This document shows, one piece after another, positions 1 to 62,903 of a stretch of DNA of 64,000 nucleotides. The position numbers were made by a program, and so were the translations under genes. This DNA is from Deltaproteobacteria bacterium (GTDB lineage Bacteria > BMS3Abin14). The notes beneath the pieces are model-generated. The model was not told the origin of the DNA. It was given only the letters and a program-made list of their open reading frames with translations, and did no database searches. The stretch spans positions 1 to 64,000 of the forward strand of contig JAADHJ010000006.1 in the NCBI GenBank assembly GCA_013151915.1, written 5' to 3'. Numbering within the stretch: position 1 is the stretch's first letter; every line of letters begins with the position of its first letter.

Positions 1-95
1 TTACCCCCATAGCCATGGAGAAGGAACTTCGCTTTGCCATTCGCGAGGGCGGCCGTACCGTGGGCGCCGGAGTGGTCAGCGAAATTGTTGAATAA
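1..95 (+). CDS. tuf: Elongation factor Tu, 3' end only (first copy)
   Basis: This is the last 31 codons of an EF-Tu gene whose start lies left of the window. EF-Tu delivers aminoacyl-tRNA to the ribosome. Bases 1-91 are identical to 16881-16971 of the complete tuf further right. The two genes then diverge in the last codons: this copy ends VSEIVE-TAA, the other VSEIVDE-TGA. Such identity is typical of duplicate tuf genes kept alike by gene conversion. Position upstream of rpmG, tRNA-Trp, secE and nusG is the usual place for the second tuf copy. Confidence 0.96.
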
Positions 96-1244: not shown

Positions 1245-1293
1245 TTGATGACTTCGCAAAAAGTCATGGATGGCCTTTTTACGACCCTGTCAA
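1245..1293 (+). repeat. Family A repeat, minimal copy (ends only)
   Basis: A 49-bp element in the nusG-rplK gap made of little more than the two family A ends: TTGATGACTTCGCAAAAAGTC at left and CTTTTTACGACCCTGTCAA at right, folding back on each other. The sequence CAACCT occurs at 1239-1244 and again at 1291-1296, which may be a target duplication that shares bases with the right end. Confidence 0.8.
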
Positions 1294-1813: not shown

Positions 1814-1969
1814 TGATGACTTCGCAAAAAGTCATCAATGCGCCCACTGAAGGGCGCCCAAATCAATGACTTGCGTTGCAAGTCCTTAGATTTGTGAGGA
1901 AAGTGAAAATGACACTTTTCGCTTTCCGTAGAGTAAAAAGCCACGCATGGACTTTTTACGACACTGTCA
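1814..1969 (+). repeat. Family A repeat, full-length copy
   Basis: A 156-bp copy in the rplK-rplA gap. It has five consecutive hairpins: the left end TGATGACTTCGC...GTCATCA; GCGCCC/GGGCGC; a GACTTGC-centred hairpin; GAAAGTGAAAA/TTTTCGCTTTC; and GTAAAAAGCC/ACTTTTTAC at the right. GGAGATGAT is present both at 1809-1817 and at 1970-1978, so GGAGA flanks the element on each side like a target-site duplication. Confidence 0.9.
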
Positions 1970-3497: not shown

Positions 3498-3654
3498 TTG
3501 ATGACTTCGCAAAAAGTCATCAACGTGCCCACTGAAGGGCGCCCAAATCAATAACTTGCGTTGCAAGTCATTGATTTGTAAAGAAAGTGAAAATGAAATT
3601 TTTCGCTTTCCGTGGAGTAAAAAGTCATGAATGGACTTTTTACGACCCTATCAA
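3498..3654 (+). repeat. Family A repeat, full-length copy
   Basis: A 157-bp copy between rplJ and rplL with the same five-hairpin layout and direction as 1814-1969. Left end TTGATGACTTCGC, right end GACTTTTTACGACCCTATCAA. It separates the normally tightly coupled stalk genes L10 and L7/L12. Confidence 0.9.
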
Positions 3655-15775: not shown

Positions 15776-16978
<1,203 letters not shown>

Positions 16979-31781: not shown

Positions 31782-31882
31782 TGATGGACCTGCAAAAAGT
31801 CCATCAAGCAGGATGTGCGCGGAGTGGAAGCCATCTCCCGCCTCGTAAAATAGCTTGAAGAGACTTTTTTCGGGGTTGTCGA
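31782..31882 (+). repeat. Family B repeat
   Basis: 101 bp between rpoA and rplQ: TGATGGACCTGCAAAAAGTC at left, a core with AAGCAGGATGTGCGCGGAG, and GAAGAGACTTTTTTCGGGGTTGTCGA at right in two parts. It shares its core with 34790-34891, 52840-52980 and 58969-59069. Confidence 0.8.
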
Positions 31883-34789: not shown

Positions 34790-34891
34790 CAAGCAGGATG
34801 TGCGTGAAGCGTGCAGACTGGCGGGGGAGCCACGCCAATGGCGTGACCACCGAGAAAAACGGTTTGAAGAGACTTTTTACGAGGTTATCAA
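34790..34891 (+). repeat. Family B repeat, left end lost
   Basis: Core AAGCAGGATGTGCGTGAAGCG and right end GAAGAGACTTTTTACGAGGTTATCAA (as two joined pieces). It lies directly upstream of trpB2, filling most of its leader together with the inverted family A copy. Confidence 0.75.
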
Positions 34892-51697: not shown

Positions 51698-52852
51698 ATG
51701 CAAAGTCTTGCTCAAATTCTGAAGGATAACAAACCGCGGGCGACCCTCGCCCTTGCGGACGGCACCGTCCTGCATGGATGGGGTTTCGGGACATCCGGGA
51801 CGGCTGTGGGCGAGGTTGTCTTTAACACATGTATGACAGGTTACCAGGAAGTCCTCACCGATCCCTCCTACCACCGTCAGATCGTGGTGATGACCCCCAC
51901 GCAGATCGGAAATACAGGGGTTAATTCAAACGATAGTGAATCGGCCAGGCCATATGTCGCCGGCTTCATCGTTCGGGAGAGTTCCCTGCTCACGAGCAGC
52001 TGGAGGGCGGATGAAGGGATGGAAAGCTTTCTGGCGAGGAATGGGATCACCGGGATCGAGGGTATAGACACCCGTGCATTGACGAAGCACCTTCGTGATC
52101 ACGGGGCACAGGGCGGAGTGATCGGCATCGGTGATGTTGATCCGGATGAACTCATTGCAAAGGCGAGGGGATGGGGCAGCATGGAGGGCAGGGACCTTGT
52201 CACGGAGGTAACCCCTTCCGAAGAATACAGGTGGGAAGAGGGCCCGTTTCATCCTGTTGCCGGGTTTGCCGAGGTTGAAAAAACGCGGCGCGTTGTAGCA
52301 ATGGATTTCGGAATAAAACGTAATATTCTCCGGGAATTAGCGGGTTCAGGTTGCGAGGTGACGGTGGTTCCGGCTTTCACCTCCCCGGAGAGGATCCTGG
52401 AACTTTCGCCGGATGGGATCTTCCTCTCCAACGGTCCGGGCGACCCGGGGCCGGTCAGATATGCCGTTGATACCGTGAGGGCCCTTCTGGGCAAAGTCCC
52501 CATTTTCGGGATCTGTCTGGGGCACCAGATCCTCGGCCTGGCGCTGGGCGGTCGTACTCGCAAGCTGGTGTTCGGGCACCACGGGGGAAATCACCCCGTG
52601 AAGGACCTCTCCACGGGGAAGGTGGAGATTACATCGCAGAACCACGGGTTCGTTGTGGATTCCGACTCCCTCCTCGCGGCCGGCCAGCGGGTTGAGGTGA
52701 GCCATATCAACCTGAACGACGGGACGGTGGAGGGAATACGGCATCTGGAGATTCCCGTTTTTTCCGTCCAGTACCATCCCGAGGCATCCCCGGGGCCCCA
52801 CGACTCACACTACCTTTTCCACCGTTTTGTTGAACTTATGACTATCCCGTAA
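51698..52852 (+). CDS. carA: Carbamoyl-phosphate synthase small (glutaminase) subunit
   Basis: Supplies ammonia from glutamine to CarB. 384 residues. The catalytic Cys C273 is in GICLGHQ, with the His/Glu partner in [11 protein letters not shown]. The stop TAA falls inside a family B repeat (CCCGTAAAAAGTC), so the last residues are specified by the repeat. It is separated from carB by that repeat. Confidence 0.96.
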
Positions 52853-52980
52853 AAAGTCTCTTCGAGCCTTTTTACGGGGCGGTCAAGCCAACGGCGTGAT
52901 TCCCCCGCCAGGCGAAGCGAATCCACCTGGTTCCACCCCCACCCAAGGATGTACGCTCCGCGCACATCCTGCTTGATGGA
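52840..52980 (-). repeat. Family B repeat, inverted
   Basis: Runs from CCCGTAAAAAGTCTCTTCGAG to GCGCACATCCTGCTTGATGG. It covers the carA stop codon and most of the 144-base carA-carB gap. The extra internal part CCAACGGCGTGATTCCCCCG is also visible (inverted) in the copy before trpB2. Confidence 0.8.
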
Positions 52981-58968: not shown

Positions 58969-59069
58969 TCAATAGACTCGCAAAAAGTCCGTCAAGCGGG
59001 ATGTGCGCGGGGGGGAGCCATGCCCCGCCTCGTAAAATGCCTGGAAGAGACTTTTTACGAGGTTAGCAT
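58969..59069 (+). repeat. Family B repeat
   Basis: TCAATAGACTCGCAAAAAGTC, core AAGCGGGATGTGCGCGG, then GAAGAGACTTTTTACGAGGTT. It begins one base after the pyrF stop and separates it from the receiver gene. Confidence 0.8.
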
Positions 59070-59115: not shown

Positions 59116-59499
59116 ATGGTGCAGAAAATTCTCATCGTTGAAGACAACATCGTGATTTTAACCATGCAAAAACAGATCTTCGAGATGGAAGGCTATGAGA
59201 TAATCACCGCGCAGGAGGGAATGGATGCCCTCAAGAAGGTTCATGAGGCGCATCCGGATATCGTCCTCCTCGACGTGAATATCCCGGGTATGAACGGTTT
59301 TGAGCTTTGTAGGCAGATCAAGGAGGATCCTTCCCTTTCGGATATCATCGTTGTCATGATCTCGGCGGTTTACTACTCCGATGAGGATGCCAAAAAGGGG
59401 ATGGCCATGGGCGCCGACGCCTATTTCACAAAGCCCTATGAAAACGAGGTCCTCCAGAACAAGATCAAGGAGCTTCTCGAATCCCGTAATGTCGGATAA
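59116..59499 (+). CDS. Stand-alone response-regulator receiver protein
   Basis: 127 residues, only a receiver domain (CheY/Spo0F-like): acidic E9-D10, phospho-acceptor D53 in VLLDVNIPG, Lys in YFTKPY. No output domain. ATG 59116 is 5 bases after GGGAGG, and ATG 59113 is an alternative. It lies between pyrF and pyrE and overlaps pyrE by 11 bases, an unusual neighbour for a pyrimidine gene. Confidence 0.9.
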   Translation: MVQKILIVEDNIVILTMQKQIFEMEGYEIITAQEGMDALKKVHEAHPDIVLLDVNIPGMNGFELCRQIKEDPSLSDIIVVMISAVYYSDEDAKKGMAMGADAYFTKPYENEVLQNKIKELLESRNVG

Positions 59500-60067
59500 A
59501 ATTCTTCTTTCCATCTTCCGGGAGAAGGGGGCCCTTCTGGAAGGCCACTTCGGCCTGACTTCCGGCAAGCACAGCCCGGTTTATCTTCAATGTGCCCTGG
59601 TCCTGCAATATCCTGATGTTGGAAGGGATCTCGGTAGCAGGCTGGCCGAGAGGGTGGGAGAGGGGATCGACCTCGTAGTGTCACCAGCGGTTGGAGGCAT
59701 TGTTATCGGGCAGGAGGTAGCTTGGGCCCTCGGTGCGAGGGCAGTGTTCACCGAGAGAGTTGATGGAAAAATGGCCCTGCGCCGCGGATTCACGGTTAAT
59801 CCCGGTGAGAGAATTCTGGCTGTGGAGGACGTGGTTACCACCGGGGGATCCATCAGGGAGGCCGCAGACCTTGCTGTCGAACTGGGTGGCAACCTGGTTG
59901 CCACCGCTTCACTGGTGCATCGCTACATTGATAAACCTGTCGATCCCACCCCATATCCGCACTTTTCGCTTCTGCCGATTCATGCCCCCGCCTTCGAACC
60001 CGGCCAATGTCCCCTGTGCCGTGAAGAGATCCCCATGGAAAAACCCGGGAGCAGAGCGCTTAAGTAA
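59489..60067 (+). CDS. pyrE: Orotate phosphoribosyltransferase
   Basis: Joins orotate to PRPP giving OMP. 192 residues. PRPP motif VEDVVTTGGS (about residues 111-120). C-terminal extension with GQCPLCREEIPMEKPGSR, a CxxC form seen in a subgroup of bacterial PyrE. ATG 59489 overlaps the receiver gene in another frame, so translation is probably coupled. Confidence 0.95.
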   Translation: MSDKILLSIFREKGALLEGHFGLTSGKHSPVYLQCALVLQYPDVGRDLGSRLAERVGEGIDLVVSPAVGGIVIGQEVAWALGARAVFTERVDGKMALRRGFTVNPGERILAVEDVVTTGGSIREAADLAVELGGNLVATASLVHRYIDKPVDPTPYPHFSLLPIHAPAFEPGQCPLCREEIPMEKPGSRALK

Positions 60068-60118
60068 AAATAAAGTCAGGGTCGCTGTTTTATCCCGTTT
60101 GAGGTTCGACGTTGAACT

Positions 60119-60206
60119 TTGATAGGGTCGTAAAAAGTCCATTCGTGGCTTTTTACTTAACGGAAAGCGAAAAGTGTCATTTTCACTTTCCTCACAAATC
60201 TTCGAT
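60119..60206 (-). repeat. Family A repeat end, left of the HD-GYP cargo
   Basis: From TTGATAGGGTCGTAAAAAGTC to CACAAATCTTCGAT, matching the first 88 bases of the inverted copy at 60904-61038. Homology stops at 60206 where the HD-GYP-bearing insert begins. The first hairpin (AAAAAGTCCA...TGGCTTTTTA) may also terminate pyr transcription. Confidence 0.85.
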
Positions 60207-60214
60207 AATAGTGG

Positions 60215-60868
60215 TCAGGTGCAGAACCTTGTTAGCCATTGCTTATTGTTTATAAAAACCTTGAAGACATCCGGATCAAAACAATGCATATTTTTTCTCA
60301 TAATATTTATTGCATCATCAACCTGCAACGTAGACCTGTAAGGACGGCTTGATGTTAATGCATCAAAATAATCAGCCACTCGTATAATTCTTGCAATCAG
60401 GGGGATCTCATCTCCCTTTAGACCGTTTGGATACCCAGTGCCATCATAGTTTTCATGGTGGCTGAGAATGGCATCGTTCAACATCGGATTATAGTCAAAA
60501 TCGGCAATAAGTTTTCTGCCTAGAAATGTATGAAATTTGATCATCTCAAATTCTGCCTCAGTTAATAATGTCGGCTTATTCAAAATAAACTCGTCCACTG
60601 CGATTTTCCCGACATCATGAATGATTGCTGCCATTCTCACAGTATCCAAATTAACAAATTGGTCGGAAAACCCTGACTCTGCAATGTTGAGCGTTATTTC
60701 TGCCACATGATCAGAATGGTTTTTTGTATAAGGGTTTCTTAATCCAATTGCAGCACTCATTAGGTTGGTTGCACACTTGATATCGATGATATTTTCTTCT
60801 CCCTCAGCTATAGCAGCTCTATGGCCGGCGATAGTCTGCATGTGATTGGAGATAGAAGAATCTTTCAT
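60215..60868 (-). CDS. HD-GYP domain phosphodiesterase
   Basis: 217 residues, a single HD-GYP domain for cyclic di-GMP hydrolysis: H84-D85 in IHDVGKIA, HHENYDGTGYPNG (137-149), and FDALTSSRPYR. ATG 60868 is chosen because an ATG at 60898 lies in the repeat terminus and has no ribosome site. GAGGG lies about 11 bases upstream of 60868. Base use is much AT-richer than the neighbours, suggesting transfer. No receiver domain. Confidence 0.88.
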   Translation of the reverse strand: MKDSSISNHMQTIAGHRAAIAEGEENIIDIKCATNLMSAAIGLRNPYTKNHSDHVAEITLNIAESGFSDQFVNLDTVRMAAIIHDVGKIAVDEFILNKPTLLTEAEFEMIKFHTFLGRKLIADFDYNPMLNDAILSHHENYDGTGYPNGLKGDEIPLIARIIRVADYFDALTSSRPYRSTLQVDDAINIMRKNMHCFDPDVFKVFINNKQWLTRFCT

Positions 60869-60903
60869 GATGTGTGTGCCCTCAGTTTGCGAAGTCATAA
60901 CTG

Positions 60904-61038
60904 TTGATAGTGTCGTAAAAAGCCCATGAATGGTTTTTTACTTAACGGAAAGCGAAAAGTGTCATTTTCACTTTCCTCACAAATCTTCGATTTGAGCGCC
61001 CTGATGGGCGCGTTGATGACTTTTTGCGAAGTCATCAA
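60904..61038 (-). repeat. Family A repeat, inverted
   Basis: 135 bp, TTGATAGTGTCGTAAAAAGC to GACTTTTTGCGAAGTCATCAA, full set of hairpins. It lies 5 bases beyond the right end of the HD-GYP-bearing element and has the same direction, so the two are in tandem. Confidence 0.9.
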
Positions 61039-61183
61039 TATTGTACGCACAACCACGCAGCAAAAGACAGTTACGGCACTCAAATGTGGGGAATCGTATC
61101 CGATTATTAAATTAATTTGCAAGTCATTTTTGACATTTAATGGTGTTAAAATCTCGATGGGCGCGTAAAGGCCTAGGATCCAT

Positions 61184-61206
61184 CCACCTCCGCTGAAGCT
61201 ATGGTG
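61184..61206 (-). repeat. Small palindrome (CCACC...GGTGG family)
   Basis: Inverted copy of the element at 56275-56298, reading CCACCTCCGCTGAAGCTATG on the + strand. Confidence 0.6.
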
Positions 61207-61242
61207 AAACAATGGAGTTTGAAGTTTGAGCTTTGAAGTTTT

Positions 61243-61345
61243 GGTTCATCCGGTTAATGCGTACCTTTATTATCTTGCTGTCATTGCGAGGAGCATCGAG
61301 GGAGACGAGAGTGACGCGGCAATCCCGGGCGAAGCTGAAAAGGTC
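61243..61345 (+). repeat. 103-bp repeat, copy 1
   Basis: From GGTTCATCCGG through TGCTGTCATTGCGAGGAGC and GTGACGCGGCAATCCC to GCTGAAAAGGTC. An inverted copy lies at 62904-63007 on the far side of argC. The GTCATTGCGAGG...GCAATC core itself is an imperfect palindrome. Confidence 0.88.
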
Positions 61346-61411
61346 GTTGCGGCGCCCTCCGGTCGCCCACGGGATCGCTTCACTCGGATACGGTTCGCGA
61401 TGACCAGTGAA

Positions 61412-61458
61412 GTCATTGCGAGGAGCATCGAGGGAAACGAGAGTGACGCGGCAATCCC
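61412..61458 (+). repeat. 103-bp repeat, core-only copy
   Basis: GTCATTGCGAGGAGCATCGA to GTGACGCGGCAATCCC, 47 bases nearly identical to the core of 61243-61345 and in the same direction. Confidence 0.85.
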
Positions 61459-61604
61459 AAAGGTCAAAAGCTAATTTATCACAGTCACGCCGATGGCGTG
61501 ACTTGGAGGTCACTTCACAGGGTTTAAAAAAAGGGTTGCACAGGTTTTAAACTTCGCGAAACCTCGTTAACTTGTTTTGAATAAACCCTGTGCCACCCTG
61601 CCTG

Positions 61605-61630
61605 CCAGCCATAGCTTCAGCGACGGCTGG
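61605..61630 (+). repeat. Small palindrome (third copy)
   Basis: CCAGCCATAGCTTCAGCGAC-GGCTGG. The arms CCAGCC/GGCTGG changed together compared with CCACC/GGTGG at 56275, so pairing is kept. Confidence 0.6.
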
Positions 61631-61705
61631 TGAAACTCTGTGCACCCTGTGTTAAATTAGCTTTTCACAAAATCTGGTCATCCTTCAGGTACTCATTTCC
61701 AGGAT

Positions 61706-62752
61706 TCAGGGAACAATGGGCAGATCCAGAAGCCCGAGAGTCTCCGGAAGCCCCAGCATGATATTCATGTTCTGTACCGCCTGTCCGGAGGCGCCTTTCA
61801 CGAGATTGTCCAGGCAGGAAATCACGATGATCCTTCCGTTTCCCCGGTCAATCCTTGGAGCGATGACGCACATGTTGGTTCCGCGAACCTCCTTCAAGGT
61901 CGGAAGCGGTTCCTGGTTTCCCCGGACCTGCACGAACGGCTCATCCCTATACCGTTCTTTGTACAGATCACAAACGGCCTCGGCCTCAAGGGAACCAGCC
62001 GGATCGGCATAGATCGTCGAAAGTATCCCTCTACTGACCGGGAGCAAATGAGGGGTAAAGGTCACCCGGATTTCCTTTCCCCCGATCCTGGTCAGCTCCT
62101 GGTCAATCTCAGGGGTGTGCCGGTGCACACCCGCAATTCCATAGGCCGAGAAGTTGCCCTCCACCTCGGGGAAATGGAGATGCTCCTTCGGTTCCCTTCC
62201 GGCCCCGCTTACACCGGATTTGCTGTCGGCGATAACGGAAGACGTCTTTAGGAGACCCTTTTCCACAAGAGGGACGAGACCCAGGATGATGCTGGTCGGA
62301 TAACACCCCGCGTTGGCCACCAGGAAAGCGTCACGTATTCCATCCCGGTAAAGCTCGGGAAAACCGTTTACAGCGGTCCGCAGCAGATGGACCTGGCTGT
62401 GGGGGCCATACCACTCCTCGTAGACCTTCCGTTCCCGCAATCTGAAGTCAGCGCTCAGGTCAACGGTTCGCACGCCTGTTTCAATCAAGGCGGCGGACGC
62501 ATCCATGGCACCCCCATGGGGAAGGCATACGAAAACCAGGTCCGACTCCATCCGGGCCTCGGAAGCGTCAAACGCCCTGAACCTCAGACCCGTCCGGCCG
62601 GACAAGGCCGGAGAGACCTCGGAAAGATGCTTTCCGGCCCACTTCCTCGATGTGACGTATGTCAGGTCAACCTCGGGATGGCGCAACAGAATTCGGATGA
62701 GCTCCATCCCGGTATAGCCCGTTGCCCCGATTATTCCCACTCTGGCAGTCAT
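61706..62752 (-). CDS. argC: N-acetyl-gamma-glutamyl-phosphate reductase
   Basis: The third step of arginine synthesis. 348 residues. NAD(P)-binding GATGYTGMELIRIL at residues 9-22 and catalytic C150 in NAGCYPT; HRHTPEI (His) later. Start chosen at the second of two tandem ATG codons, with GGAGGG just upstream. Downstream of rpsI but separated by a terminator and a 103-bp repeat; another inverted repeat lies beyond its 3' end. Confidence 0.96.
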   Translation of the reverse strand: MTARVGIIGATGYTGMELIRILLRHPEVDLTYVTSRKWAGKHLSEVSPALSGRTGLRFRAFDASEARMESDLVFVCLPHGGAMDASAALIETGVRTVDLSADFRLRERKVYEEWYGPHSQVHLLRTAVNGFPELYRDGIRDAFLVANAGCYPTSIILGLVPLVEKGLLKTSSVIADSKSGVSGAGREPKEHLHFPEVEGNFSAYGIAGVHRHTPEIDQELTRIGGKEIRVTFTPHLLPVSRGILSTIYADPAGSLEAEAVCDLYKERYRDEPFVQVRGNQEPLPTLKEVRGTNMCVIAPRIDRGNGRIIVISCLDNLVKGASGQAVQNMNIMLGLPETLGLLDLPIVP

Positions 62753-62903
62753 CATCCCTCCGATCTACAAATGCCCCAGGGTAGCCAAGACATTGAATCA
62801 TATCACAAATCAGGTTCATCGTAAAAATGAGTACCCGGATGTGAAATCATGTTGAAATAACAAACACTTCCAGACCTGATTTACCACAGCCTGCCCTGAG
62901 CTT
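62753..62903. other. Non-coding spacer upstream of argC
   Basis: No gene seen. Contains AAAAATGAGTACCCGG (about 62824-62839), an inverted form of the GGTACTCATTT sequence at 32834 and 61687. With the repeat 62904-63007 and the rpsI terminator it makes a gap of about 316 bases. Confidence 0.5.

Follow-up and report, generated by a model that had tools for sequence, protein, structure and literature searches.

We found that an AT-rich gene for a predicted cyclic-di-GMP phosphodiesterase of the HD-GYP type lies between two pieces of a short repeated element, termed here family A, next to an intact copy of the same element. The most likely reading, to which we assign a probability of roughly 0.6, is that the gene inserted into the left copy of two family A elements standing in tandem and broke that copy, so that the element is the landing place and the gene a passive lodger. 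This reading is suggested by the complementarity of the two pieces, by a right terminus that sits in tandem register and by two look-alike arrangements elsewhere. The window referred to below is the whole stretch of DNA analysed, 64,000 nucleotides of contig JAADHJ010000006.1 of a Deltaproteobacteria bacterium (Table 1).

Table 1. Features of the HD-GYP locus, of comparable loci and of the loci used as background (window coordinates unless a contig or locus is named).
Feature	Position	Strand	Remark
pyrE, left neighbour	59489..60067	+	family-wide conservation
Left part of family A copy, element positions 1-88	60119..60206	+	ends within third hairpin; hairpin 3 lost
HD-GYP phosphodiesterase ORF, 227 aa as opened	60215..60898	-	stop 60215-60217
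Right terminus of family A copy, positions 122-134, TTTGCGAAGTCAT	60886..60898	+	exact 13-base match; tandem register
Intact family A copy, five consecutive hairpins	60904..61038	+	fold z = -7.1; 0/200 shuffles as stable
argC, right neighbour	61706..62755	-	adjoins pyrE in no relative examined
Minimal family A copy immediately before rplK	1245..1293	-	control
Complete family A copy between rplK and rplA, antiparallel to the genes	1814..1969	-	control; 15 bases before rplA start
Complete family A copy after rplJ, antiparallel to the genes	3498..3654	-	control
C10 look-alike, hybrid histidine kinase	L202 6622-9225 = own genome C10:100621-103224
Sister-genome look-alike, beta-carbonic-anhydrase-like gene	L329 202-1035, contig C39		gene recognised from sequence
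C16 case, TPR gene	own C16, L264 6990-8150 vs sister C43, L337		positions 1-89, gene, positions 29-136
Intact copy followed by partial copy	L015, L016, L021, L022, L025, L028, L030; C28:6160, C28:53504, C11:10061
Different short hairpin repeat	31826-31877, 34835-34886, 52837-52882, 59013-59064

Family A has the sequence TTGATAGGGTCGTAAAAAGTCC ... GCGAAGTCATCA, folds into five consecutive hairpins and ends in imperfect terminal inverted repeats (TTGATAGGGTCGTAAAAAGTC versus TTGATGACTTCGCAAAAAGTC, 16 of 21 positions matching). It is non-coding and ranges from about 48 to 176 bp, with lengths clustering near 48, 136, 154 and 175 bp; about 245 left ends (3 mismatches or fewer) are present in the 2.27 Mb genome. 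Comparison of the flanks of 88 complete copies with an expectation obtained from shuffled flank pairs revealed a target duplication of 3 bp (31 copies versus 3.9 expected). Of 11 further genomes from the bacterial family, 10 contain family A matches; in these relatives the copies are mostly of a 157-bp form with a longer third hairpin. The inverted ends, the 3-bp duplication, the copy number and the spread across the family indicate that family A is a MITE-like mobile element. About 140 of the approximately 245 left ends were sampled in detail, and no parent transposase or autonomous transposon with family A ends was found among them. Rfam gave no match to family A, and none of the papers searched contains its end sequence. 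Another short hairpin repeat in the window (CTCGTAAAA..AGAGACTTTTTACGAGG), distinct from family A, is similar to the first hairpin of that family. Window positions 1-91 and 16881-16971 are identical and look like two copies of an EF-Tu gene.

Head-to-tail pairs of family A copies, 3 bp apart, are frequent, and so are partial copies directly adjoining intact ones across a 3-bp gap. Around one third of the 140 sampled left ends have no nearby right end. About 11 of 44 truncated copies end no more than about 17 bp from a facing gene's stop codon, a pattern that fits removal of the non-coding DNA as far as the gene. A further recurring pattern is an intact copy, 3 bp, and then just the first 24-60 bases of a second copy (Table 1); such partial second copies sometimes share private variants of the adjoining intact copy. 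At C2:32538, L316 and L264 7920, element fragments seem to provide the stop codon of the neighbouring gene.

At the HD-GYP locus, the sequence-only reading had described one half of a family A copy after which homology stops, the other terminus beyond the gene, and an intact copy starting 5 bases later and extending to 61038. Each of these elements was recovered at the positions given. The left piece shows 95% identity to the family A consensus and 93% to the neighbouring copy, with no homology beyond 60206, and only 8 bases separate it from the stop codon of the gene. The right terminus, whose terminal CA is altered to AA, was assessed by scoring matches to its 13-mer at positions -18 to -6 relative to 140 left ends in the same genome. 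The scores are bimodal, with background at 0-8 and tandem copies at 9-13, and the copy at 60904 scores 13 of 13. Against this distribution 60886-60898 is a genuine right terminus in tandem register, and a chance 13-mer match is ruled out by the full score at the tandem offset. The 5 bases before the next copy are also the usual tandem spacing in this genome (TCAT to TTGATAG). The two pieces are complementary in length, providing 88 and 13 of the approximately 136 bases of the element. The unit is flanked by ACT on the left and, in register, by CTG on the right, ACT being found on the right only with a one-base shift.

The protein matches Pfam HD_5 (E=7.6e-33) and carries the HD, HHExxDGxGYP and DxxDAxxxxRPYR motifs in a single domain. 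The longer open reading frame opens at 60898, within the element terminus, but translation probably begins at 60868 (217 aa), downstream of a GAGGG ribosome-binding site. The low GC content noticed at the outset was confirmed by comparing GC and codon use with the other genes: the gene has 39% GC and 39% GC3, versus 56% and 66% in the 45 other genes of the window (GC3 z = -4.9). No relative above 43% identity was found among the 12 genomes of the family, which are all the genomes of the phylum compared. A search across 84,980 species gave a best match over most of the gene of 45%, in a Chloroflexi bin, and nothing above 45-48% was found anywhere searched. The gene is not present in the sister species. 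Collectively, the GC3 deviation, the exclusively distant relatives and the absence from the sister species indicate that the gene is foreign in origin. A degraded resident HD-GYP gene is ruled out, the protein being complete and dissimilar to the genome's 11 other HD-GYP matches; plasmids, phages and viral contigs gave distant relatives only and were uninformative on a phage or plasmid origin. No family A element was found beside HD-GYP relatives elsewhere (0 of 82 loci). A terminator-like site, a hairpin with a T-rich tail, is located at 60191-60169 on the minus strand, suggesting that the half copy probably also acts as the transcription terminator of the gene; no sigma-70-like promoter was found on the gene's strand within the intact copy at 60904-61038.

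Among the sampled left ends, we found three cases in this genome of a left end followed by a same-direction right end more than 250 bp away with no copy between: the HD-GYP gene, a kinase gene on contig C10 and a TPR gene on C16. In the search for other long, gene-holding copies, as proposed in the sequence-only reading, C10 and a locus on contig C39 of the sister genome emerged as look-alikes, and C16 as two overlapping copies. On C10, element positions 1-84 are followed by the kinase gene, a 23-base right terminus, 3 bp and an intact copy, and both inverted repeats are retained. The gene, which is preceded by a decayed reading frame, encodes a 604-aa PAS hybrid histidine kinase with an N-terminal RsbU_N domain, is AT-rich (47%) and has no orthologue in the relatives (best match 35%). 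In the sister genome, the order is a 24-bp left end, the carbonic-anhydrase-like gene, hairpins 4-5, 3 bp and an intact copy. In these two units and in the HD-GYP unit, complementary and never overlapping pieces surround an AT-rich gene whose stop codon lies at the left end and whose start lies near the right end, and a clear matching 3-bp duplication was found at none of the three.

The pieces on C16 overlap, so two copies are required and a gene-bearing element is ruled out. The TPR gene is a resident with orthologues in 10 of 11 relatives, and gene order is unchanged in the sister genome, where both sides lack a family A copy, indicating that the arrangement arose by separate insertions. 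At this locus, the upstream gene's stop codon marks the exact start of one copy. Besides these cases, no gene-holding copy was found among the approximately 140 sampled left ends.

Two independent copies may instead flank the HD-GYP gene, each truncated on its gene side by a deletion halting at the gene. We consider this unlikely but worth serious weight, because it is what occurred at the resident TPR gene, where the same picture was produced by separate copies. The abundance of left-only truncated copies agrees with it, as do right-end-only fragments of 24-32 bp that precede intact copies and lack a left half over a distance of about 11 kb (C33:45528 and C10:92274). A rough calculation from about 245 left ends and an assumed total of roughly 2,100 genes predicts some 20 genes flanked on both sides by chance. 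The common truncations near facing stop codons and the flanks ACT and CTG, unmatched as a target duplication, likewise count against an interrupted copy. Independent copies require more events, however, and the pieces are complementary in 3 of 3 foreign-gene cases. Of the four right-end-only fragments sampled before an intact copy, two are preceded by a left half that matches; given some 80 left-only copies in the whole genome and an expectation of roughly 0.04 for each, the chance of two in-register pairs is roughly estimated at about 1%.

The sequence-only reading had favoured an element whose core was replaced or filled by the gene, which could then be passenger cargo. The first part survives as the most likely interpretation, in the form of an interrupted copy; the second finds no support. 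It is improbable, in our view, that family A ends repeatedly capture foreign genes, each time in the same orientation (stop codon left, start right beside the intact copy) and serve as cassette-like carriers in which a gene replaces the hairpin core. Slightly more doubtful still is that these ends act as transposon ends carrying a passenger gene in the manner of a mobile insertion cassette. Carriage keeps some standing mainly through the three foreign genes, in two species, in one relative orientation, to which the retention of both inverted repeats on C10 can be added. Against it, the HD-GYP gene is single-copy and no second copy of its unit was found, the right inverted repeat is reduced to 13 bases with a mutated tip, none of the three units has a clear duplication, and transposase- or gene-bearing copies of this kind are missing from the approximately 140 left ends. 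Moreover, ordinary genes are flanked likewise: rplK lies between the copies at 1245-1293 and 1814-1969, and rplA-rplJ between those at 1814-1969 and 3498-3654, all in one direction, so same-direction bracketing is uninformative on carriage.

The pyrE-argC junction (window 60068-61705) is unique to this genome among those compared. The two genes are 1.1 Mb apart in a complete relative genome and separate in all other relatives. In the relatives, merR and a 741-aa HD-GYP protein come after pyrE, and a double-receiver protein comes after argC. In this genome, contig C10 holds merR and the 741-aa HD-GYP protein, adjoining the histidine kinase look-alike, whereas the double-receiver gene is found on C16, preceded by a family A copy and cheD. 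The junction resembles an inversion breakpoint; alongside it are copies of family A and a further repeat (GTCATTGCGAGGAGCATCGAGG), and other rearrangement breakpoints likewise carry family A copies. That the whole arrangement is a by-product of chromosome rearrangement, or of an assembly join at repeats in the pyrE-argC interval, would agree with these displaced neighbours; it is nevertheless very improbable, as the gene and both pieces lie within one contig with no sequence break and inversion alone would not have brought in a foreign gene. The family A copies of the HD-GYP and C10 units are all oriented like pyrE and merR, suggesting that the two units may once have been side by side between these genes and later split by rearrangement. 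The sister genome differs in gene order and its contig ends after pyrE. With pyrE-argC itself a rearranged junction, there is no simple empty site for the HD-GYP gene.

Family A inserts with a 3-bp duplication and often forms head-to-tail pairs whose members are separated by 3 bp. Under the preferred reading of an interrupted tandem member, a short piece of foreign, AT-rich DNA containing the complete HD-GYP gene would have entered the left copy of one such pair and taken the place of element positions 89 to about 121, the part that lies between hairpins 3 and 5. Its entry would have been an illegitimate insertion, after which non-coding DNA was trimmed back as far as the stop codon on one side and the ribosome-binding site on the other. 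We infer this order of events, as well as the common origin of both pieces in one copy. If the element is merely a landing place, the locus would add to the examples of abundant neutral repeats in which foreign genes are tolerated; if carriage were true, a small bacterial phylum would possess a gene-spreading system built from non-coding hairpins. The bracketed ribosomal protein genes caution that same-direction MITE bracketing does not make a gene cargo.

Taken together, these features can be placed among known systems. Like the bacterial MITEs RUP, Correia/NEMIS and similar elements (PMC2229807), family A is short, non-coding, high-copy and intergenic, with inverted ends and a target duplication; it differs from them in having a duplication of 3 bp and a row of five hairpins, and in the frequency of its head-to-tail pairs and truncated copies. 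The HD-GYP protein resembles stand-alone HD-GYP phosphodiesterases with solved structures (4mcw, 5z7c) in its HD and GYP motifs and in a domain spanning most of the protein, with about 40-45% identity at best and no sensor domain. Mobile insertion cassettes (MIC/MICE), such as the qnrS2 cassette bracketed by 22-bp repeats (PMC5444012), likewise place a gene between transposon-like ends with no transposase. They have two complete transposon ends, whereas the HD-GYP unit has one damaged end, no clear matching duplication, one copy and no sign of movement. TIMEs are miniature elements that mobilise the DNA between two copies, and they have been moved in traps with duplications of 5-6 bp (PMC4133298). 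The HD-GYP locus similarly has DNA between miniature element ends, but in this genome the same arrangement also surrounds ribosomal protein genes.
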